64,000 nucleotides of DNA from a virus. Made by a program: the position numbers and the translations under genes. The stretch is taken from the IMG/VR virus record IMGVR_UViG_3300036939_000034, positions 1 through 64,000 of that record. One strand, written 5' to 3'. A model generated the notes under the pieces. That model saw only the letters and a list, made by a program, of their open reading frames with translations, was not told the origin of the DNA and made no database searches. Below are positions 30,837-46,547 of the stretch, in pieces. Every line of letters begins with the position of its first letter. The stretch's first letter is position 1.

Positions 30837-31616
30837 GTGGACATTTTAACAAAGAACGGAATAGATCCGTTGAAATATGAATTGGGCATCCTATGCCATG
30901 CGAAGCATGATTGGATGGAGACGGGGTACAGCTTAAGGCAAAAGAGGAAAGGTCGAAAGAGTACCAATTGTGTTGAGTGTTCAAGACTAGCGAGTCGTCG
31001 CTACAGAGAGCAAAACCCAGAAAAGGTTAAAGAACACGCAAAGAAAAGCTATCAAGCTCAAATGGCGAAGATAGCTGCTTCCTCTGTAGAATCTCAGGAA
31101 GAATACAGGCAAAGAAGACGGCTTGCCAGCAGCAAATTTTTCTCAAATAACCATGAGTTATGTCTGCAAAGAAATAGAGCATCTAAAGCCAAGCACAAAG
31201 AGAAAGTCCTTCGGTATGGCAGGGAGTATTCCAGAAAGAATTGGAAGATTCAATATCGCAGGCACTGGCAAAGGATAAAGCTTTATACTCAGGAGCGCAA
31301 AGCTAAGAAGCTACTCGGGGGCGAATTCCCTGGTATTCGCACTCTCAGGGAGTGTTTTCAGTATTTTGACAGTTGCTGTGTCTATTGCTCTTGTGAGCTT
31401 GACTTCTGTGTGGGTCAAAACAAGGTGCAATGGGATCATATTGTGCCTGTATCAAAAGGCGGACAAAATAACTTGCACAATTTAGTCCCGTCGTGTAAGT
31501 CTTGTAATTCAAGTAAATACTGTACAGATTGGATTGCTTGGTACTCGTCTCGTCCGTTCTTTTGTTTAGAGCGATTCATGAAAATCAATAACCATACACA
31601 AGGGATTTGGCTTTGA
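30837..31616 (+). CDS. HNH endonuclease between terminase genes
   Basis: GTG start at 30837; 259 residues. The C-terminus has a complete HNH/zinc fold: CVYCSCEL, VQWDHIVPVSKGGQNNLHNLVPSCKSCNSSK. The N-terminus has a second Cys/His pair (LCHAKHDW...CVECSR), and the middle is very basic. It splits the terminase genes, as homing endonucleases do, but HNH proteins can also take part in packaging. Its stop overlaps the terL ATG. Codon use looks more A/T-rich than its neighbours, which favours an invading gene. Confidence 0.75.
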   Translation: MDILTKNGIDPLKYELGILCHAKHDWMETGYSLRQKRKGRKSTNCVECSRLASRRYREQNPEKVKEHAKKSYQAQMAKIAASSVESQEEYRQRRRLASSKFFSNNHELCLQRNRASKAKHKEKVLRYGREYSRKNWKIQYRRHWQRIKLYTQERKAKKLLGGEFPGIRTLRECFQYFDSCCVYCSCELDFCVGQNKVQWDHIVPVSKGGQNNLHNLVPSCKSCNSSKYCTDWIAWYSSRPFFCLERFMKINNHTQGIWL

Positions 31617-33049
31617 TGCTTCCATCCTCTTTAGAGTTGCCGCCAAAGATGAGGCTCAAGATAATTGAGCGTAGTAGCTCTAAGGGGATTTTATCCAAAG
31701 CCTCTCCTTCTGAGGGAATACAAGAGGGAGATCGACTGTTCCGTCGTCTTCCTCCGTTGCTGATGCCGTACCAGGCTCAATGGTTCTCCGATACCAGTCA
31801 AGTAATGGTGTGGGAGAAAAGTCGGCGGATTGGGGCAACCTGGGCTGATGCAGCTAAATCGGCTTTGCAGGCAGCACGTTCAAATGGTAGCGATACTTAT
31901 TATCTTGGAACCTCAAAGGAGATGACTCTTGACTATATTGAGAGCGTCTCTTACTGGGCAAGGGCTTATCAATTGGCGGCAACCCAGATTGAACAGACTG
32001 TTATCAGGGATGAAGACGAAGATATTCTGGTTTTTCGGGTTCGCTTTGCCTCTGGACATAAAGTAGTAGCTCTATCCTCTCGTCCATCCAGCTTGCGGGG
32101 GAAGCAGGGGAATGTCGTCGTTGATGAGTGCGCGTTTCTTCAGGACTTTAACGAAGTTCGTAAGGCTGCTATGGCTCTAACTATGTGGGGCGGACAAATT
32201 AGGTACATTTCAACCCATAACGGTGTAAGCAATCCTTTTAACAAGTTGTGTGAGGAGATTCGATCTGGGGCGCTTTCGTATAGCTTACATCGGACAACAC
32301 TATCTGATGCGATCGCAGACGGACTCTTCAGGCGAATCTGCTTGATAAATGGCGAACAGTGGACGCTTGAGAATGAATTTGCTTGGTATGCCCAGCTGTA
32401 TAGAGACTATGGGATTGGTGCTGACGAGGAGTTAGGTTGTCAGCCATTAGACGTTAAAGGTGGCGGACTCGTATTCAACAGAACCTGGTTTGAAGTTGTT
32501 GACACCCTTCCTCGGTTCTCCACCCAAGTTCGTTTCTGGGATATGGCAGCGACTGCCCAAGAATTCAACTCAGACGCTTTCTACACCGCAGGCTTGCACC
32601 TGGGTCGCTTCGGTTCCGATTATTATGTTGTCCACCTAATCGCCGAGCAAGTAGGACCCGCCGAAGGGGATGACCTGATTGTCACCACAGCCGCTCAAGA
32701 TGGGCGAATCGTCCCAGTGCGCTGGGAGTTAGAGGGGGGTAGTGCAGGGCTAAAGGTTGAAGCAAACTTGCGATCGCGTTTGTCTGGCTTTGATGCTCGT
32801 GGGGTAAAACCATTGGGTGACAAACTGACCCGTGCCAAACCTATTGCAGGAGAAGCCAAGCGCGGTAACGTCAAGTTGCTGCGTGGTATGTGGAATCAGA
32901 TGTTCTTGGATGCGGTTCACGGTTTCGATGGAACCAGCCAGCCACTGATTAATGATGTGACCGACGCTTTAAGTGGCGCTTATGGAGAGATTTCCACCGT
33001 TCGGAATTACCATGTTAGTGGAACGGTGAATCGAGCTAAGTTGAGCTAG
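31616..33049 (+). CDS. terL: terminase large subunit (Mu gp28-like)
   Basis: ATG 31616 overlaps the HNH stop. The product has about 477 residues. The ATPase part has a Walker A-like VWEKSRRIGATWADAAK and Walker B VVVDECAFL. The nuclease part has RFWDMAAT, with further acidic residues toward LINDVTDALSGAY. It is the packaging motor that cuts and translocates DNA into proheads. Order and motifs match phage Mu gp28 and Terminase_6 proteins. Confidence 0.85.
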   Translation: MLPSSLELPPKMRLKIIERSSSKGILSKASPSEGIQEGDRLFRRLPPLLMPYQAQWFSDTSQVMVWEKSRRIGATWADAAKSALQAARSNGSDTYYLGTSKEMTLDYIESVSYWARAYQLAATQIEQTVIRDEDEDILVFRVRFASGHKVVALSSRPSSLRGKQGNVVVDECAFLQDFNEVRKAAMALTMWGGQIRYISTHNGVSNPFNKLCEEIRSGALSYSLHRTTLSDAIADGLFRRICLINGEQWTLENEFAWYAQLYRDYGIGADEELGCQPLDVKGGGLVFNRTWFEVVDTLPRFSTQVRFWDMAATAQEFNSDAFYTAGLHLGRFGSDYYVVHLIAEQVGPAEGDDLIVTTAAQDGRIVPVRWELEGGSAGLKVEANLRSRLSGFDARGVKPLGDKLTRAKPIAGEAKRGNVKLLRGMWNQMFLDAVHGFDGTSQPLINDVTDALSGAYGEISTVRNYHVSGTVNRAKLS

Positions 33050-33101: not shown

Positions 33102-33836
33102 ATGGATGAACCCGAACTAACACAAGCTGATCTGGCAACGAACGCCGAAACATGGAAGCACATCGACCTAGTAATGCAGTTGCTAGCAAACGCCCAGATT
33201 GAGTTAATGCGGCGGCAGTTCACCCATGATCGCTCTAAGCTTACTACCCCTGAAGTGTCTACTTTTACCGAGTACACCCCTAAGTTGGCAGGGAGTACTT
33301 ATGGTAGCGAAGAGTACAAGCAGTTCCTCCAAGGCATGAAGCCCGCGCTTGACCATCACTACAGCAAGAATCGCCATCATCCTGAGTTCCATGCAAAGGG
33401 AAGCAGCAAGAAAGTTTCTCAGATGTTCGCTCAGATTGAAAAATTGGAGCGATTGATTGGTAGTGGATTGGATGATTCTGTTGTTGAGGTATTAAAAGAG
33501 CAAATTAAGTTTTTGCAAGACGAGATAAAAGTTTCAACGAGCAGGGTGTCAAACATGAACCTGTTCGACCTTCTAGAGATGCTGATCGACTGGTATGCAG
33601 CAACCAAGCGACATAATGACGGCAACATCTATCGCTCTGTTGAAATCAATCGCGATCGCTTTGATATGTCAGATCAGCTGGCACGAATCTTTTTAAACAC
33701 GATTCCTTGGATTCAAGTCAACGAATTTGACCGATATCGCAATCAAGCTGACTTGGAATATGAATTATTTCTTAAAACTAATCACATTGACAGAGGGACA
33801 TTTCTCGCGCAGAGAGACTGGAAGAAAGATCCATAG
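33102..33836 (+). CDS. DUF5662-like phage protein
   Basis: The protein has 244 residues. It has an N-terminal helix with HDRSKLTTPEVSTFTEY, then YGSEEYKQFLQGMKPALDHHYSKNRHHPE and DLLEMLIDWYAATKRHNDGN. The spaced His/Asp residues look like a metal-binding helical fold, as in the DUF5662 family common in phage structural regions. Activity is unknown. It lies between terminase and portal, so it may help packaging or head assembly. Confidence 0.65.
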   Translation: MDEPELTQADLATNAETWKHIDLVMQLLANAQIELMRRQFTHDRSKLTTPEVSTFTEYTPKLAGSTYGSEEYKQFLQGMKPALDHHYSKNRHHPEFHAKGSSKKVSQMFAQIEKLERLIGSGLDDSVVEVLKEQIKFLQDEIKVSTSRVSNMNLFDLLEMLIDWYAATKRHNDGNIYRSVEINRDRFDMSDQLARIFLNTIPWIQVNEFDRYRNQADLEYELFLKTNHIDRGTFLAQRDWKKDP

Positions 33837-34119: not shown

Positions 34120-37100
34120 ATGCCCTTTGACCTTCAGACCAAACTAGAAATTGTAAGAACTGACCCCAACCTTGTTACCTGGGTCTTCAATGGCGGCCCC
34201 GAACCGGAAGACATCTATCTTTACCAGCGCTTTGGTGGTGACTTCTTCCGCTACGAAGAGATGCTCATCGATCCACAGGTAGGCGGGAAGTTAGACGAGC
34301 GGGTTGGTGCACTGTTGGGACGAGCGGTTCTAGTTGATGCAGCAAGCGAGGAGAAGGCAGATATAGAGGCAGCCAACCTCGCCAAGAAAATCTTAGACAT
34401 TCACGACGAAGACCAGAAGCAGGGGAAAAAGGACAAAAAGAAAAGACCGCTGATTCCCTACGAACAAATTTGCAGCAATTTCCTCAACAGTGGATTATTA
34501 ATCGGCTTCGCCGTCCAGGCTTTGGAGTGGGTAGAACGGGATAAGCTAATTCTCCCAAATGTGGAATTTGTTCCCCAGCGACGCTTTACCTTCCGCTACC
34601 GGGAACCGGACAACAAAACTATCAAGGTCTGCACAGATGAAGACCTTGACCCAACCAAGGATATTGTCTTAGTCAGTGGCTACGAACTCAGGCTGCTTAC
34701 TAAGCGATCGCCCATCGAAGGAGAACGGTGCCCTCGCAATAGATTCATCTGCTACACCTACGGCAGCATGAAGGGTTTGCCCCAGGGGTTAGGGCTTGGC
34801 TACCGTATTCGCAAGTTTTATGAGATTCGCAAAGAGGTGATTAAGTCAGGGGTGCTAACAGGCGATCGCCTCGGTTCGCCACCCGTTCACGGCACCTACC
34901 CCGTTGACCTTAATCCCCAGAATACTGATGACGCCATTGTCTTAGGCGCTTTCAACCGACTGCTCAAAGCCATCAGTCCCAACGCCAACGCCAGCACTAC
35001 GGACGGATTCAAGATAAACTTCCTTGAACCCCGTGCGGGCGGGCATCAGATCTTAAAGTGGCTGTACGACACAGCAGCAGTGGAAATCTCTCGTGCTATT
35101 TGGGGAGAGGGAAGCTACTCGGAAAAAACTACAGGAAGCTACGCAGCAGAAACCCAGCAGGCTGAGAACCGTAACGAGAACGTAGTTGACGCCGATTGCA
35201 ATTCACTGGACGAAGGTCCATGTGCCCAGTTGTGGCAGTTGATTGGCGAATACAACTGGCCCGATGCCACAAACCCGATAATCCGACGGGAAACCCGGTC
35301 AGAAATCAGGCGACTGGAGCAGGAGCGTCTTGAGGATGAGCAAAGGGAGGCAAAGCGTAATGGCAGAGTGCAGAGCGATCGCACTCTCATCCTAGACATC
35401 GGGTTGAATGTTACAAACGATTACATTAAAGCCACATACGGTGAAGCCTTCTCTCTTCCTGACGCTGAACCTCCACCAGAAGAGGATACAGCAGAGTTAT
35501 CAGAATCAGCATCTCGACAAGGCTCGATGACCGCCGACTTCGGCGCAATCATTGACCGTAAGCTGAAGTGGAACGGTTTAGACATTGGTGTTGAATTTCT
35601 CCCCGGTGCTGTTCGTTTCCCTGGTCGCAAGAACAGCAAGAAGCTTCGTTCGGGCTACGGTCACATCCGAGGATACTTGGGCGCTGATGGCAATGCCCTA
35701 GACTGCTACCTCTACCTCGGTTTAGTTCCCCCCAAGGGTGAAGAACCTCAAGGAAGCGATCGCATCTTTGAGGTTGAGCAAATCTCACCCGAAGACGGCG
35801 ACTTCAATGAGCACAAGTACATGATCGGTTACGACTCGGTAGAAGCTGCTAAAGCTGCCTACCTTACCGAGATGCCGGAGGAGTATTTTGGACGGATTCG
35901 GGAAGTTACTGTTGCAGATCTAGAGCAATACAAGCGTGTGAACTTTGCCGAGTCGGTACTATGGGGCGTGTGGTTCAAGGGACGCAACACCCCAGCCGTT
36001 GTGGACGCAAGTGACAGGGGAGAAGCGATTAAAAAAGCTCGTGCAACCAAGTGCGCTGGGTGGAACCAGGACGTTACCTCCTGTCGCCAGCTCAAAGGCA
36101 AATCCTTGGAGCTGGCGAAGAAAGGAAACTGGGTGAGGGAGCGAGCTAATGGGAGTGAGGAGTGTGGTGCTTTCAAGTACAGACCTCAGCTTAAGCCTGA
36201 GCATTCAGAGGGTGACGACAGTTTTTTTTTAACGAGTGAGGACGCCTACGAGGAGCGCTTCACTGATGCTTTCCACCAAGCCCTCAAGAAAGCGATCGCC
36301 TCTATCAAAGATTCCCTAACCCCCGAACTAAGTTGGGAGTCGCTCTATGCAAAGCTGGATATCACAACTTTAGCCTCAGCCATTGCCGAGGGAAACTCGC
36401 TCAGTTTCCTGGTTGGGATGTACTCGGAGCGACCCGACCGAGGGGAGGTGGAATTTGCCGACGATCCAACTCGGCTGCCATTCGACAAAGCGATCGCCTA
36501 CTTCCGCCAAAAGCTCAACATCCCAACCCAGACCTGGAAAGATATCCAAGGGGCAGAGAATGACTGGGCGTTTGCCGTGGCCGGTGTCACCAGTGCCGAA
36601 ATGCTCCAGGATTTCCGCGCAGCAATGGATCGGTATATTGCTGAGGGAACAGGCTTTGCTCAGTTTGCCAAGGAGTTTGATGCGATCGCCCAAAACTACG
36701 GCTGGCAGCCAAGGGAAGGAGTAGCGAGGAGGGCTGATTTGGTTGCCAAAACTAACTTCCGCATGGCTTACGCGGCAGGGCAGTGGCAGCAACGACAAGA
36801 CCCCGTAGTGAAGCAGCTACGCCCTGGCTTGATGTGGCGACACCGTGACTCTCCACAGGAACGCCCCCACCATAAAGCGATGGATGGCATGGTGTTTGAC
36901 GGCAATGATCCGCAATACTCTGGGCTTGTTGGTTTTTCAGGGTTCGGTTGTCGCTGCCGTACCTTCTCTGTCCCTGCACCAGATGGCGGATTTGATGTGT
37001 TAAGCGATCGCTTGCCTTATCAATTTCCCAATGGTGAAATGGGGGAAGTTCCAGCTATTAAGGTTAAAGAGAAAATTTACCCAGTCGCTGACGAGGGATT

Positions 37101-37251
37101 CTTCTACACCCCTGGTAAATCGCCCATCTCTGCCCGACCTCACCTATTCCAGCAGATGCTTGAGAGGCAGCAACCCACCTGGCAGAAGTTGATTAGAAAG
37201 GTTATTCCTCAAAGGATATTGAGGGCATTTAAGCCCAAAGGATTTGGCTAA
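34120..37251 (+). CDS. portal (DUF935) + InPase-like + MuF head protein fusion
   Basis: The protein has 1043 residues. Residues 1-440 are a DUF935 (Mu gp29-like) portal (VFNGGPEPEDIYLYQRFGGD, LLIGFAVQALEWVE, FVPQRRFTFRY). Residues about 470-610 match the pyrophosphatase-like (InPase) domain of phage polyvalent proteins (GVEFLPGAVRFPG, SGYGHIRGYLGADGNALDCY). A Cys-rich segment follows (KCAGWNQDVTSCRQ...EECGAF). Residues about 720-1043 are a MuF/SPP1 gp7 head-morphogenesis domain (HRDSPQERPHHKAMDGMVF, GFGCRCRTFS). Portal and MuF are normally separate genes. The ring portal would carry the extra domains into or onto the head. Confidence 0.8.
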   Translation: MPFDLQTKLEIVRTDPNLVTWVFNGGPEPEDIYLYQRFGGDFFRYEEMLIDPQVGGKLDERVGALLGRAVLVDAASEEKADIEAANLAKKILDIHDEDQKQGKKDKKKRPLIPYEQICSNFLNSGLLIGFAVQALEWVERDKLILPNVEFVPQRRFTFRYREPDNKTIKVCTDEDLDPTKDIVLVSGYELRLLTKRSPIEGERCPRNRFICYTYGSMKGLPQGLGLGYRIRKFYEIRKEVIKSGVLTGDRLGSPPVHGTYPVDLNPQNTDDAIVLGAFNRLLKAISPNANASTTDGFKINFLEPRAGGHQILKWLYDTAAVEISRAIWGEGSYSEKTTGSYAAETQQAENRNENVVDADCNSLDEGPCAQLWQLIGEYNWPDATNPIIRRETRSEIRRLEQERLEDEQREAKRNGRVQSDRTLILDIGLNVTNDYIKATYGEAFSLPDAEPPPEEDTAELSESASRQGSMTADFGAIIDRKLKWNGLDIGVEFLPGAVRFPGRKNSKKLRSGYGHIRGYLGADGNALDCYLYLGLVPPKGEEPQGSDRIFEVEQISPEDGDFNEHKYMIGYDSVEAAKAAYLTEMPEEYFGRIREVTVADLEQYKRVNFAESVLWGVWFKGRNTPAVVDASDRGEAIKKARATKCAGWNQDVTSCRQLKGKSLELAKKGNWVRERANGSEECGAFKYRPQLKPEHSEGDDSFFLTSEDAYEERFTDAFHQALKKAIASIKDSLTPELSWESLYAKLDITTLASAIAEGNSLSFLVGMYSERPDRGEVEFADDPTRLPFDKAIAYFRQKLNIPTQTWKDIQGAENDWAFAVAGVTSAEMLQDFRAAMDRYIAEGTGFAQFAKEFDAIAQNYGWQPREGVARRADLVAKTNFRMAYAAGQWQQRQDPVVKQLRPGLMWRHRDSPQERPHHKAMDGMVFDGNDPQYSGLVGFSGFGCRCRTFSVPAPDGGFDVLSDRLPYQFPNGEMGEVPAIKVKEKIYPVADEGFFYTPGKSPISARPHLFQQMLERQQPTWQKLIRKVIPQRILRAFKPKGFG

Positions 37252-37253
37252 TT

Positions 37254-39095
37254 ATGTTGACAGAAGAAGCGATCGCATTTGCTGAGTTAGGAAAGCTGGC
37301 AAGAGAGTTTAATTTTGCGGAAGAACAAGCCGTCACTGACCCAGAGGTTTTAGCCTATGTGAACGGAATTGTCCGCTCAATGATTAGTGGTCGAAACCTG
37401 TCTGTTGTGGGTGTGACGGTAGACGGCGACACCTTCAAGGGTGAGGCGAGAGTTAAGGTGTCACCTCGACTGACAAAACGCTTCGGTTTTGAAATTTCAC
37501 CAGACTCCAAGTCTTTTGAGGCGCTCAACGCTGATGATATAGAGAAGTTTGCAGAACCCGTTGAATTTAAAGCGGGTAGCAAAACCCTGAAGTGCAAGGT
37601 TGAACAGTGTGGTGGACGCTGTCTGAAAGGTGGAGAAAAATGCCGCCTCACCATGAAACCTGAGGAGCGGAAGGCTCACGACAAGGCACTTAGGAAGGTG
37701 GGAACTGTTGAAACCTCTCTTGCCAAGAAACGACGGGAGATGAAGGAGGCGAGAGCAAAAGAAGCTGCCACACCTAAAACCGACAAAAAGGCTGGCGTTA
37801 CCTCGCGAACCAAGGAGAAGAGTGGCACAGGTAGGGAGGCAAAAGCTGACAAGAAGAAGGAAGAAAAAAAGTCTTTGACGCCAACGGAGCGTAAAGCCAA
37901 GGAACTCGAAGACCTCAAGCAAGAGAAACATGAGTCTCTCGACAAGCTTTGGGAACGCTCCACAAGATTGAGTGGCGATCGCAAGGATGCTTTCGGTGAG
38001 GCAGTTGATAAGCACTTGTCTCTGAAAGCTGAGTCAAAAGACAAGGAGTGGCTCGATACTGTTGAATCTCAAGCCAACAGTATGTGGAATGCGGCAGGTC
38101 AAAGCCCTGCTATCCCAGAGACAGCACGAGAGCGATTTGCTCGGTTTGTTGGGGATGCCGAAACTAGGGAGATTATTTCGGCAAAGCGAGGGGAGATTTC
38201 TGATGACACCATTCAGAGAACTTTTGGAGAGGAAAACCCAGTTAGCCGAGCGTCACTGCAAGCAAGTTCGCAACCTGAAAAAATGGGCGCAACTGGGAAA
38301 ATTGTTGAGGAGTGGGCTAAGGGATTAGGTCAAACGGCGTGGAATAAAGCAACCCCAGCTCAAAAAGCTGAAATCTTGGAACGGCTGGGTGTTGACGGAA
38401 TTAAAGACTTGGGGATTGAGTTTAAGGCTCAAAAAAAAACTGACAACAGTCCCCCATTTAAGAAAGAACACATAACTTTTCCCGAAAAGATACAAAAAGA
38501 CCTGTTCCTTCGCAGTACCGACAAAGCCGCCGATCACTTGGTCAAAGATTACGGATTTCCCAGCAAGGAGATAGCTAAAAAAGCGATTAATGGAACAATG
38601 TCTTATACATCTAGCAAATATTCTAGTATCAAGTCGGCCGATAGAGGAGACAACTCCGACAAGAGCGCCAAAGAAGCTGCGGAGGGAGTTAATGAATATT
38701 TAAAAAGGATGCCTCGGTATGACGGGGAAGTTCACAGGGGAATGTACTTTTTAAATGAAAACTTTAACGAAAATGCTATTGAAGCTAGTTTGGCTAAAGG
38801 AACGGATTCAATCACTAGTTTCACGACTAACAAGAAAATAGCGGAAAAGTTTTCTACTGGCAACAATGGGATAAGCAGGAGAGACGTTGAAGTTTTTATA
38901 ACTGTCCAAAATAAGACAGGTGTTTCAATCAAGTCTATTTCTCTTAAGCCAAACGAGGACGAGGTGACGGTTCCAAAAGGGGTTCGTTATCAAATTGTTG
39001 GCAAGAGTAAAACAATTAAGGATGTAGATGATATATTTGCTGGCGATGAGCCAAGGAAAGTGACGAGGATTGAATACAGGTTAGAGGAGTTGTGA
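37254..39095 (+). CDS. toxin-like protein: shared N-domain + ADP-ribosyltransferase
   Basis: The protein has 613 residues. Residues 1-150 form an N-domain shared with 39314..40765 (MLTEEAIAFAELGKL, KVSPRLTKRFGFEIS, and a C-x4-C-x3-C-x6-C site at C114, C119, C123, C130). A long Lys/Glu-rich linker follows. The last 190 residues carry an R-S-E class ADP-ribosyltransferase signature: R495 (EVHRGMYF), 522-525 SFTT (ITSFTTNKKIAEKFS), and E568/E570 (NEDEVTVPKG). It would transfer ADP-ribose from NAD to a protein target. Its position beside the portal suggests packaging in the virion and injection, as with T4 Alt, but this is inference. Confidence 0.7.
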   Translation: MLTEEAIAFAELGKLAREFNFAEEQAVTDPEVLAYVNGIVRSMISGRNLSVVGVTVDGDTFKGEARVKVSPRLTKRFGFEISPDSKSFEALNADDIEKFAEPVEFKAGSKTLKCKVEQCGGRCLKGGEKCRLTMKPEERKAHDKALRKVGTVETSLAKKRREMKEARAKEAATPKTDKKAGVTSRTKEKSGTGREAKADKKKEEKKSLTPTERKAKELEDLKQEKHESLDKLWERSTRLSGDRKDAFGEAVDKHLSLKAESKDKEWLDTVESQANSMWNAAGQSPAIPETARERFARFVGDAETREIISAKRGEISDDTIQRTFGEENPVSRASLQASSQPEKMGATGKIVEEWAKGLGQTAWNKATPAQKAEILERLGVDGIKDLGIEFKAQKKTDNSPPFKKEHITFPEKIQKDLFLRSTDKAADHLVKDYGFPSKEIAKKAINGTMSYTSSKYSSIKSADRGDNSDKSAKEAAEGVNEYLKRMPRYDGEVHRGMYFLNENFNENAIEASLAKGTDSITSFTTNKKIAEKFSTGNNGISRRDVEVFITVQNKTGVSIKSISLKPNEDEVTVPKGVRYQIVGKSKTIKDVDDIFAGDEPRKVTRIEYRLEEL

Positions 39096-39313: not shown

Positions 39314-40765
39314 ATGTTGACTCAGGAGGCGATCGCATTTTCAGCGTTGGGGCGGTTATGGCGAGGGATTGCGGTAAGTTTTGCCGAGGTTGTCACTGAC
39401 GCTAACACCCTAAGCCTTATTCAGTCTGGACTGCAACAGGGGCTGGGCAGGCGGATTACCAAGATTTTAGGTGTCACAAAAGACGTGAAAGGAACCTTTG
39501 AAGGGGAGTTTCAGCAGTACGTCAGCCCTCGCCTTACCAAGCGATTCAGCTTTATCTTTGGTGAGGAGCAGGTTAGCTTCAAGCCGCTTAACCTTGGGGA
39601 CATTCAGAAGTTTAGCGAAGGTGCTAGTGATACTCCAGAGTTCGCCCGTCAGTCAAAAAGTGGCAGAGCAGGGACTTCCCTAAATTGCAAAATTGAACAG
39701 TGTGGGGGGCGATGCTTGCGAGGAGGAGAATCCTGTCGCCTAACGCCTACAGAAAGCCAGAGAAAGCTGTGGAGTCAAGCAAGTGGGAAGAACTTAGCGA
39801 CCAAACCCGAAACCTCTCTTGCCAAAAAGCGACGGGAGGCGAAGGAGGAGCGTATTGCGATCGCTCGTGAGAAAGAGGCTCGTGAAAAGGCTCAAAAGAA
39901 GGCTGGCAAGAAAACAACTAATTCAGCAACACCTCTCAAGGACAAGATACAAGAGAAGCAAAATCAAGTTAGGCGCAAATATGAGTCAAGACTTGATAAA
40001 AACAAGGCTGACTACGACCAAAAGAAGCAGGCTTTGATTGAGGCATCGAAGGACAGCGAACCTGCCAGAAAAGTGGTTAATGCGGCAGAGAAGAAGTATT
40101 ATGATTTGCTAAAAAAAAGAGAAAAGGAGCTGAATGATATCGCCCCTTCACTCACTTTTGACGAAGTCAAAAAAAGTTACAAACCTCCACAGCCTCAAAC
40201 GAAACACGGAATGCCTCAGAGCGAGGATATGTGGAGCGTTGAATACAATGGAATGAGGTTTCATTCTAGTAGTGAGTTTAATAAAAATAGTGACGCAATC
40301 AGTTTAATTCAGCAGGTAGCAACAAACGAACCATTACCTAGGTCGTTTACAAAACACACTAAAGATGTTTATTTCTCACAAGGAAAGAATAAGTATGACT
40401 CTTACTGGGAAAAAGAATACAACTCGACTGGTTTTGTCTCTGCTGCTACCGGAGGGAATGAAGGGGTTGTTTATTACCAAAGTCGTAATGGAGGGAAAGG
40501 GGACTATAGTACGCTAACCCATGAGATGGGGCACAATTTTGCTCAATCAAGATATGGGCAGCCAACGCCTAGCCCAGTGAGTGATTTTTTTGTAGCCACT
40601 AAAGAGGGCGATCCGATTTCTACCTATGCTAAGAGCAGTCCTGCGGAAGATTTCGCAGAAACAGCCAAGGCTTACTTCTTGGACAAGGAGAAGTTGAAGC
40701 AGAAGTGCCCTGAGCGCTACAAGGTATTTGAAAAGATGTTGAAGGATGAAAGTTATGGCGGATGA
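39314..40765 (+). CDS. toxin-like protein: shared N-domain + zinc metalloprotease
   Basis: The protein has 483 residues. Residues 1-160 match the N-domain of the preceding gene (MLTQEAIAFSALGRL, YVSPRLTKRFSFIFG, and the same Cys spacing at C125, C130, C134, C141). After a Lys/Glu coiled linker, residues about 300-480 form a zincin: HEMGHNFAQ (H403, E404, H407) and PAEDFAETAKAYF (443-455) supplying the third ligand, as in lethal-factor-like peptidases. It would cleave a protein target. It appears to be a paralogue whose C-terminal effector was swapped. Confidence 0.7.
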   Translation: MLTQEAIAFSALGRLWRGIAVSFAEVVTDANTLSLIQSGLQQGLGRRITKILGVTKDVKGTFEGEFQQYVSPRLTKRFSFIFGEEQVSFKPLNLGDIQKFSEGASDTPEFARQSKSGRAGTSLNCKIEQCGGRCLRGGESCRLTPTESQRKLWSQASGKNLATKPETSLAKKRREAKEERIAIAREKEAREKAQKKAGKKTTNSATPLKDKIQEKQNQVRRKYESRLDKNKADYDQKKQALIEASKDSEPARKVVNAAEKKYYDLLKKREKELNDIAPSLTFDEVKKSYKPPQPQTKHGMPQSEDMWSVEYNGMRFHSSSEFNKNSDAISLIQQVATNEPLPRSFTKHTKDVYFSQGKNKYDSYWEKEYNSTGFVSAATGGNEGVVYYQSRNGGKGDYSTLTHEMGHNFAQSRYGQPTPSPVSDFFVATKEGDPISTYAKSSPAEDFAETAKAYFLDKEKLKQKCPERYKVFEKMLKDESYGG

Positions 40766-43690: not shown

Positions 43691-45187
43691 GTGCTAGTCA
43701 GAAGCGCGATGCAAGATGGTTTGAAGTGGTTCGAGATATTTAGATCGGGAAAGCGAACCTCGTCCAATGGGGTCACTCGCGATTATTCTCTTTCAGATTT
43801 AGATCAGGCTGTCGAAACTTACAATCCCGACAACTTCAAAGCTCCCCTGATTGTCAGCTATCCAGCGCATCACACTGGGAGCTACTCAGACAGGGATTTG
43901 CACAAGAGTCAGATAGCCTTCGGCTACCCAGAAAAGCTTAAACGAGTGGGCGATAGGCTCATGGGCGGATTCAAGAAAATCTCCCCAAAAATAGGGGAAT
44001 GGATTCGCGATGGAGGAATTCTAGGTTTCAGCGCAAGCTTCTACCTTCCTAACTCTCTCTTCAATCCCTATCCAGGGAATTTGGCACTACGTCACGTTGC
44101 GGCTTGCGGGGTGGACCCTCCAGCCGTCAAGGGGATGAGTTTGCCCGATGACTTTACTGAATTAAATGAACTTGACCCGATTAGGGTTTCTTTTGAGCGG
44201 ATCTATTCCCTTGAAGAATTTGCGGATTATGCGGAAGACCAAGACGATACGGTTGAATTTGGTCTAGAGGCAGAAGCCGACGATGAAACGATTGAGAATG
44301 CACGAATCGGGGTCAGGGTCTGGCAGGCTCTGAAGATGGTTGCTGAGCGTTGTCGAAGCAATGTTGCGAGTTTTTCTCCTGACAGCTCCTTTATGGCAAT
44401 GGGGGACGGTTCTACTCCTATTGCTTCCTTATTTAAAGACTTCTACCAAAGAAGTCGCGATCGCTTCATCGAAGAGAAAGGCGTAGAGGAAGCCGATAAG
44501 ATTTACCCCACCTACGTCCTCGATCAGCTTGCCGTGGTAACTTCCCAGCCTTCCCCCAGTTTCGCGACTTGGGAGGATGTTTCGCGCCTGCAATCCCAGA
44601 TCGACCGCTTGAGCTTTCAACTTCGCTCTGGCGAGGGTGAGGAAGGAGGGAGTGAGGACAATCTGGGGGAATTTTTGAACGATTACAGCGAGGAGGAAGA
44701 GGAATCTATGGGAGTCGATGAAGCAGAATTTGAGGAGATGAAAGAACGCCAAGGCGACCTAGAGACAAAGGTAAGACTACTGACGCTTGAAAACCAACGC
44801 TTAACCCAAGAGCGGGAAAATGATCGAGTCACTGCTTTTTGTGAACAACTGGTGCGCGATCGCAAACTACTCCCCACACAGAAAGATCGGGAAGTTCGCT
44901 TCATCCTTTCTTTGGATAACAACAACACTGCCGACTACGGCGAAGAAGGAGAGCTTACTCCTCGTGTCGCCTACATGAATAAGCTGTCTGGCGGACGGGA
45001 ACTCTGGTCAAACAAGCAAATGCCGATTGGGCCTGAAGATGCCCCAGCTTTTACCGAAAAAGCTCCCAATGGTTTCGATGCCAGAAGCACTGCCCAGAAT
45101 CGGCAAATCCAAGCTTACGCCAAGGAACACAACCTTGAATTCACTGAAGCCTTGGATGCCCTTATTGAATCGGGAGCGTTGAGATAA
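43691..45187 (+). CDS. prohead protease with scaffold domain (Mu I-like)
   Basis: The protein has 498 residues (start at 43691 or 43709). The N-terminal half has FRSGKRTSSNGVTRDYSLSD and the protease signature DGGILGFSASFYLPN with a candidate Ser, then LRHVAACGVDPPAVKG with a candidate His, as in Mu gpI. Residues about 320-400 are an acidic coiled coil, and the C-terminus is the scaffold. The protease would cut scaffold and head proteins during maturation. Confidence 0.75.
   Translation: MLVRSAMQDGLKWFEIFRSGKRTSSNGVTRDYSLSDLDQAVETYNPDNFKAPLIVSYPAHHTGSYSDRDLHKSQIAFGYPEKLKRVGDRLMGGFKKISPKIGEWIRDGGILGFSASFYLPNSLFNPYPGNLALRHVAACGVDPPAVKGMSLPDDFTELNELDPIRVSFERIYSLEEFADYAEDQDDTVEFGLEAEADDETIENARIGVRVWQALKMVAERCRSNVASFSPDSSFMAMGDGSTPIASLFKDFYQRSRDRFIEEKGVEEADKIYPTYVLDQLAVVTSQPSPSFATWEDVSRLQSQIDRLSFQLRSGEGEEGGSEDNLGEFLNDYSEEEEESMGVDEAEFEEMKERQGDLETKVRLLTLENQRLTQERENDRVTAFCEQLVRDRKLLPTQKDREVRFILSLDNNNTADYGEEGELTPRVAYMNKLSGGRELWSNKQMPIGPEDAPAFTEKAPNGFDARSTAQNRQIQAYAKEHNLEFTEALDALIESGALR
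44708..45187 (+). CDS. scaffold from internal start (Mu Z-like)
   Basis: ATG 44708 lies in frame within the protease gene and is preceded by AGGAGGAAGAGG, a strong ribosome site. The product (MGVDEAEFEEMKERQGDLE...) is the coiled-coil scaffold alone, 159 residues. Nested protease/scaffold genes are known in Mu and lambda. Confidence 0.5.
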   Translation: MGVDEAEFEEMKERQGDLETKVRLLTLENQRLTQERENDRVTAFCEQLVRDRKLLPTQKDREVRFILSLDNNNTADYGEEGELTPRVAYMNKLSGGRELWSNKQMPIGPEDAPAFTEKAPNGFDARSTAQNRQIQAYAKEHNLEFTEALDALIESGALR

Positions 45188-45537: not shown

Positions 45538-45545
45538 GGGGGTTG

Positions 45546-46547
45546 ATGGTAGTAGAGTTTGCCCATGAGGGGATGAACAGGCTGGAGGTTAAGGCTGGGT
45601 ACAATATGGTACTCAGTACTTATGCCACTGGCTACACCAACGCTGAATTTAAAGGGCGCTATCTTTCCCCGTTTGCAGAAGTTCCAGCCCGTTCTGGAAG
45701 CGTCATTCAGTTTGATGATTCAGCTTTCGATCCTGCCGAAGACGATCGCGCCGATGGCGGACCGTTTAACGAAATTCAAGACGGCTACGAAGGGCACCCC
45801 TTCAGCCTGAGGAACAAAGGACTTGCCTACAAGGTTCCTCTCGAGCATGAGGAGGAAGCGGCAACTGCCAACATTAACTTAGGGAAGCGGGCTAGTAATT
45901 CATTGATGCGTCGCTCTGCTCTCAATATCGAGCTGGAGCAAGCCCGAATGGCTCGGAATCCCGCCAACTACAACGGGTTGGTAACCGCTCTCTCTGGTGG
46001 CAGCCAGTTCAACGACCAGGGTTCACGACCTGACCAAGCTATTGAAACTGCCAAGCTTGCGATCGTATCCCGTACCGGACATAAACCAAACGTGATTCTT
46101 GGCGGCGAACAAGTAGTGAGCGCTCTAAGAACTCATCCGTTAGTCCGCGCCAACTTCCAACCCACCTCATCAATGGCAATTAACGATGAGATGCTGGCTC
46201 AATATTTTAATGTGTCTCGCTTTGTCTCTGCTGAAGCAGTCTGGCGAAACAAAGCAACGGGAGCTAAAGGATTCATCTGGGGAAAAGACTTGATCCTTGC
46301 CTACGTCAACCCCAAAGCTTTTGAGGGTGATGCAGACGGACGAATCCCTTACACCGTCAATAACGACATTGATCGCATGACTGAACCCAGCAAATTTTAC
46401 ACCTATGTATTGAAAGGGGTTCCCAAAGTTTCCAATGCCTTCTGGTGGGAAATGAACGACTCTTGGTATTACAAGATTCGTTTTGAACGTGACCATCATG
46501 TAACGGGAATGGATTCTGGCTATTTAATCCAAAATGCGATCGCGTAA
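45546..46547 (+). CDS. major capsid protein
   Basis: ATG 45546 follows a G-run site. The product has about 333 residues: N-terminal arm, RSGSVIQFDDSAFDPAEDDR, DGYEGHPFSLRNKGLAYKVP, TGHKPNVILGGEQVVSALR, then a basic/aromatic end. This fits the major capsid family of Mu-like contractile phages by size, position after the decoration gene and the conserved LAYKVPLEHEE region. Confidence 0.8.
   Translation: MVVEFAHEGMNRLEVKAGYNMVLSTYATGYTNAEFKGRYLSPFAEVPARSGSVIQFDDSAFDPAEDDRADGGPFNEIQDGYEGHPFSLRNKGLAYKVPLEHEEEAATANINLGKRASNSLMRRSALNIELEQARMARNPANYNGLVTALSGGSQFNDQGSRPDQAIETAKLAIVSRTGHKPNVILGGEQVVSALRTHPLVRANFQPTSSMAINDEMLAQYFNVSRFVSAEAVWRNKATGAKGFIWGKDLILAYVNPKAFEGDADGRIPYTVNNDIDRMTEPSKFYTYVLKGVPKVSNAFWWEMNDSWYYKIRFERDHHVTGMDSGYLIQNAIA

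Follow-up and report, generated by a model that had tools for sequence, protein, structure and literature searches.

The gene at 34120-37251 (+) raises the question why a phage portal, a pyrophosphatase-like enzyme domain and a MuF head protein should be joined in one polypeptide, and in which form this polypeptide acts in the virus. The window is the whole stretch of 64,000 nucleotides that was analysed, i.e., positions 1 to 64,000 of the IMG/VR record IMGVR_UViG_3300036939_000034, which is a virus contig of 70,323 bases. The initial annotation reported portal, InPase-like and MuF domains in a single protein of 1043 residues, and this holds: the gene is one stop-free frame encoding 1043 amino acids (117.8 kDa), and three Pfam matches lie above their curated cut-offs, namely Portal_Mu PF06074 at residues 45-441 (E 7.6e-36; 124.5 bits, cut-off 23.9), InPase PF18823 at residues 475-604 (E 3.8e-26; 92 bits, cut-off 26.8) and Phage_Mu_F PF04233 at residues 831-948 (E 8.1e-12; 46.3 bits, cut-off 29.6). 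Moreover, a match to PHROG 220 spans residues 712-1023 (E 1.5e-55). Domain identities and fusion are thereby confirmed, and the layout is as follows.

34120..37251, + strand: portal-InPase-(Trp/Cys domain)-portal C-tail-MuF fusion gene, 1043 aa (translation, Pfam, PHROG)
34120..35505, + strand: Mu-type portal core module, residues 1-462, predicted fragment of 52.4 kDa (Pfam match 45-441)
35542..35931, + strand: InPase domain, residues 475-604, with a predicted type I pyrophosphatase fold and Asn residues at 525 and 563 (Pfam, AlphaFold, Foldseek/VIA)
35956..36189, + strand: small Trp/Cys domain, about residues 613-690, two conserved Cys (645, 655) (alignment with relatives)
36208..36441, + strand: helical C-tail, residues 697-774, homologous to the Mu-type portal C-terminus (hhalign)
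36463..37248, + strand: MuF module, residues 782-1043 (Pfam match 831-948)

The portal is assigned to the Mu type by its PF06074 match, by its location between the terminase large subunit (TerL) and MuF and by a C-terminal helical tail lying behind an insert. Polyvalent proteins are defined by several effector-type domains in a chain that is linked to genes for head packaging; the fusion protein contains, by its Pfam matches, a single one, the InPase, next to two structural proteins. For the InPase the proposed fold is borne out by structure prediction: the AlphaFold model of this region has pLDDT values mostly above 90 over the domain, and the matches that Foldseek and VIA-align list for it are inorganic pyrophosphatases throughout. 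VIA Z-scores of 6.9-8.0 by themselves could reflect a common arrangement, but the uniform match list together with the Pfam match makes a type I pyrophosphatase fold convincing for the model. Residues 600-1043 are modelled poorly (mean pLDDT 61). The segment between InPase and MuF, described initially as Cys-rich, turned out to hold three cysteines (645, 655, 682), and only 645 and 655 are conserved in the related contigs L001 and L003, so that this description was overstated. An identity of this segment with the CGGxC knuckle of the cargo-like genes described below was ruled out by its different sequence and the lack of a profile match.

Behind the Trp/Cys domain, residues 697-774 align to the C-tail of Mu-type portals with an hhalign probability of 94.3% (E 9.6e-8). 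A first C-tail profile left the window's own C-tail undetected and gave weak matches only, and it was the profile-profile comparison that resolved the homology. As judged by this comparison, the stretch 697-774 is the tail that ends the Mu portal itself; the InPase accordingly lies between the core and the tail of the portal, and MuF behind the tail. The virion structure of Mu lacks the last 124 residues of the portal gp29, a gap that the authors of the structure interpret as a cut made by protease I (PMC11915804), and residues 697-774 correspond to part of the stretch missing there.

An F/L/M-A/S-E/D motif is present at three inter-module junctions of the window protein (ELSE/S, NFAE/S and VEFAD/D, with the slash marking the presumed cut), and a head protease is encoded downstream.

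35494..35508, + strand: candidate protease site ELSE462/S in the acidic portal-InPase linker (from the motif)
35941..35955, + strand: candidate protease site NFAE611/S just after the InPase; at this point L003 stops and restarts with a leader (from the motif)
36451..36465, + strand: candidate protease site VEFAD781/D at the C-tail/MuF border, conserved in L001-L003 (from the motif)
43691..45187, + strand: head maturation protease/scaffold (gpI-like, phrog_976), the presumed processing enzyme (PHROG)

The linker in front of the InPase is variable and acidic; ELSES, ELSEA or ELSEP is kept in the group of the window, and DMSES or DMAET in Nostoc prophages. In the window this site reads LSE and not FAE, which speaks against processing. 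After the InPase follow NFAES in the window, ANFAEQ or SNFTEL in Nostoc and QFAES in L054, and the C-tail/MuF border reads EFAD or DFAD, with SFADV and SFAEP in RcapMu and RR1-B. Among representatives of the Mu-like clades, 12 of 17 linkers contain F[AS][ED] where shuffling predicts 1.4, a count inflated by shared ancestry, which the shuffles ignore, and the broader motif pattern was partly drawn up after the linkers had been seen. The density of F[AS][ED] is 11.7 per 1000 aa in linkers and 1.1 elsewhere in the same proteins. Furthermore, in many phages with motif-bearing junctions the motif is enriched in the protease-scaffold protein (observed versus expected: JBD67 7 versus 0.4, B3 6 versus 0.4, L024 7 versus 0.6, L042 4 versus 0.3, L054 5 versus 0.6). 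As an example, B3-like phages have STEFAEGD or AAEFAERA at the border of portal core and C-tail and several motif copies in the protease-scaffold. In Mu, the portal linker reads AALSAED, the scaffold has repeated AALSA and F[AS][ED] is absent from it. Such a co-variation of junction and scaffold motifs is what the recognition site of a head protease would be expected to give. Also against processing, the enrichment of the strict F[AS][ED] in the scaffold of the window's lineage is weak (L003 2 versus 0.8, L004 1 versus 0.7, L011 0 versus 0.5); the looser F[ASTEGK]E occurs four times in the window's own protease with 1.1 expected. A literature search found no paper with experimentally mapped sites of the Mu protease I. 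In Mu (L207, L213), AALSAED lies at position 427 of gp29, where a cut would remove 82 residues, and the repeated AALSA belongs to the protease I/Z scaffold.

The InPase also differs from its neighbours in its history. Compared with Nostoc prophages, the window protein is 29-30% identical in the portal and 39-41% in MuF, whereas the InPase reaches 68-77%; compared with L004 the pattern is reversed, with 71% for both portal and MuF and 45% for the InPase. Read from these identities, the InPase is exchanged independently of the neighbouring portal and MuF modules and behaves as a cassette. The closest InPase relatives are found in Nostoc-type prophages, and Nodularia phages hold relatives of the cargo and InPase genes, making a cyanobacterium the likely host of the window phage. 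In other cyanobacterial or related elements, it is the Cys-knuckle carrier domain of the cargo genes that is fused to Mu-type portals, with or without an InPase, and the resulting portal proteins reach about 1000-1270 aa:

L042:844-4086, L054:4516-7893, L056:1552-5211, L059:4435-7473 and L219: portal + Cys-knuckle carrier fusions

Taken with the C-tail, these observations suggest an answer to the opening question: the fusion is probably a protease-processed, cassette-bearing Mu-type portal polyprotein that delivers the InPase into the head. Its order would be portal core, cleavable linker, exchangeable InPase, second cleavable junction, Trp/Cys domain, C-tail, third junction and MuF. Since the portal C-terminus faces the head interior, the InPase and MuF parts would enter the prohead together with the portal ring. 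Cuts by the gpI-like head protease at ELSE462/S, NFAE611/S and VEFAD781/D might then yield, inside the head, a portal (about 52 kDa), a free InPase (about 17 kDa) and a MuF protein (about 30 kDa). The freed InPase could be ejected with the DNA and act early in infection on a nucleotide or PPi-type substrate, as was proposed for polyvalent InPases after their injection (PMC5512222). An enzyme on a portal, at first sight an oddity, would thereby become a testable delivery scheme, in which a portal polyprotein brings a removable cassette into the head. Moreover, the little-studied Mu-type head protease gains specific candidate cleavage sites and a candidate recognition motif.

Whether the delivered domain is an enzyme is a separate matter. 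In the window InPase, Asn replaces the usual acidic residue at two positions, 525 (D or E in 43 of 51 homologues) and 563 (D in 47 of 51), leaving the conserved acidic set of the polyvalent-type InPase PF18823 incomplete. With these replacements its catalysis is doubtful, and InPase activity in the window phage may be weak or lost. It is possible, although on balance rather doubtful, that the domain is carried and released but is no active hydrolase, acting as a binding or decoy domain or being a decaying passenger, which would be compatible with processing. The InPase of L004, shortened and diverged, points in the same direction. However, D523, D528, E564, K566, Y513 and R499 are retained in the window, both positions are acidic in the close relatives L001 and L002, and the cassette is exchanged and retained.

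The initial annotation pictured a 12-fold portal with the additional domain on each subunit. If the chain stayed intact, InPase and MuF would remain on the portal inside the head as permanent decorations, serving packaging or ejection at the portal vertex. The single reading frame and the occurrence of InPase fusions in two or more portal families would agree with this, and the C-termini of Pbunavirus portals are unresolved in the virion structures and not shown to be cut. It is nevertheless an unlikely reading, given the enrichment of F[AS][ED] at the junctions, the Mu portal C-tail missing from virions and the relatives, whose gene breaks coincide with the junctions of the window protein and split the chain there. 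Moreover, MuF of SPP1 is present in 1-2 copies per capsid and not in 12 (PMC5576092). Comparative evidence of this kind favours a proteolytic separation over a permanent 12-fold decoration, and thereby backs the check proposed in the initial annotation, which was for processing by the gpI-like protease.

The relatives also bear on the distribution of the fusion. Portal and InPase are fused in all four closely related viral contigs (L001-L004), the InPase is fused to the Trp/Cys domain in L001, the Trp/Cys domain to the C-tail in L003 and the C-tail to MuF in L001, L002 and L003. Where the InPase ends, L003 is interrupted by a stop and, after a short gap, starts anew with the leader MLTSEAIAYAELGRIFRLLNASFTEL; the window reads through as YKRVNFAES. 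That the three-way fusion is an artefact of assembly or sequencing, which deleted stop and start codons, is highly improbable, since every junction is fused in some independent contig, GC and GC3 are fairly even along the 34120-37251 frame and the window's InPase junction is without the whole L003 leader, as is the leaderless junction of InPase and middle segment in L001, even though the exact combination was found in one contig only. The initial annotation had suggested a search for the same fusion in other cyanophages, which was successful for the portal-InPase and the other junctions and not for the full three-way combination. A second portal-InPase-MuF protein was absent from the four related viral contigs, 26 MuF loci and 160 InPase loci (viral and bacterial contigs) and, within the cyanobacterial phylum, from 386 genomes; tblastn matched 628 phage records, none of which covered 80% of the fusion protein, and megablast gave no near DNA relatives among named phages. 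A scan of genome contigs with the portal-InPase alignment returned no relative, and the InPase domain alone was therefore used as query. The three-way combination is thus unique to the window among the sequences searched, and its single junctions are not. In two relatives, genes are inserted exactly between the portal-InPase and MuF parts, i.e., one of peptidoglycan-binding type at L001:5289-6809 and KilA-N-like and GIY-YIG-like genes at L002:10127-12922 (all by eye).

Portals with an InPase are known from other phages, so that the initial view of such a subunit as unusual stands only in part. The available part of Iyer 2017 names the portal-InPase BcepF1.124 among polyvalent proteins, in which an InPase is fused to a packaged head protein and injection is predicted, and does not name a portal-InPase-MuF protein; the paper describes polyvalent proteins as scarce in cyanobacteria (PMC5512222). 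A literature search by words for a portal-pyrophosphatase fusion found no paper, although Iyer 2017 mentions such a fusion. In Pbunavirus (Pseudomonas phages 14-1, E217 and Pa193) the portal gp19 carries a C-terminal InPase (635-753 of 765 aa), and the gene order is portal-InPase, MuF, protease and major head protein, both as in the window. However, this portal belongs to the Phage_portal_3 family, its InPase is about 34% identical and MuF is a separate gene. In the Pa193 virion, residues 529-765, InPase included, have no density (PMC11042391), and the E217 portal was modelled only for residues 97-528 of 765 (PMC10329688); the missing C-terminus fits a flexible or a released domain. As far as these sources go, the fusion of portal and InPase was already known, and the three-way fusion with MuF, found only in the window, is new.

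The Nostoc-type portal-InPase prophage proteins (L127-L131, L050-L052) share with the window the Mu-type portal, a similar linker motif (DMSES/DMAET) and a C-tail after the InPase, but lack the Trp/Cys domain and have MuF as a separate gene several kb downstream. In Mu itself (gp29 (H), gp30 (F)), portal core, C-tail and MuF follow one another as in the window, the portal C-terminus is lost in the virion, and the gene order TerL-portal-MuF-neck-protease-head protein agrees; in contrast to the window these are two genes, there is no InPase and the linker motif is AALSA. In RcapMu and RR1-B (L209, L210) the portal C-tail is likewise fused to MuF, with SFADV/SFAEP in between, whereas the portal core is a separate gene, an InPase is missing and the C-tail opens the MuF gene instead of ending the portal. 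The gene break between portal and MuF thus changes its place within a chain that is perhaps cut in any case. The annotators of RcapMu had remarked on the short portal and the early start of MuF.

The fusion gene lies in an ordinary head module, in which TerL (31607), a DUF5662 gene (33102), the fusion gene, two cargo-like genes and a neck protein (40945) are followed by the protease/scaffold (43691), the major head protein (45543) and the tail sheath (48119).

31607..33049, + strand: terminase large subunit
37254..39095, + strand: cargo-like gene with leader, beta domain, CGGxC knuckle and ADP-ribosyltransferase-like C-terminus
37254..37322, + strand: shared N-terminal leader MLTEEAIAFAELGKLAREFNFAE, candidate head-targeting peptide
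39314..40765, + strand: second cargo-like gene with leader, beta domain, CGGxC knuckle and HExxH metallopeptidase-like C-terminus
45543..46547, + strand: major head protein (phrog_1005; PHROG)

Both cargo genes share the leader ending in an FAE-like motif, the beta domain and the CGGxC knuckle, and differ in their C-termini. Their common N-terminal leader, with a protease-type site behind it, has the arrangement of T4-type capsid targeting. Head-targeting peptides are known from T4 and from P1 DarB, and the cargo leader is similar in position (PMC9024508), which would make it a candidate head-targeting peptide in cyanophages. Across this family (window, L001-L004, L041), the leader MLTxEAIAFAELGRLxRE...FAE, the beta domain and a CxnCGGxCx6C knuckle recur, and the C-termini vary between ADP-ribosyltransferase-like, HExxH peptidase-like, GNAT and kinase-like; relatives carry more such genes.

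Such a leader is also present on the separate, C-tail-bearing MuF proteins of L001-L003, and absent from the fused protein of the window and from the C-tail-less MuF of L004. This distribution suggests that a portal fusion may take the place of the leader. As a tentative generalization, held with somewhat less than even confidence, the portal C-terminus and a detachable N-terminal leader might be interchangeable routes of head loading in cyanophages, with cassettes using either route, all being trimmed at the same type of protease site, and portal-fused modules losing the leader (window versus L003). The cassettes would then comprise the InPase, MuF and the Cys-knuckle carrier with its various ends (ADP-ribosyltransferase, peptidase, GNAT or kinase-like).

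Two further genes of the head module were noted. An HNH-endonuclease-like gene (30837-31616, by eye) lies between the likely small and large terminase genes, and the DUF5662 gene (33102-33836) between terminase and portal has a homologue at the same place in L001, where L003 has a different gene.
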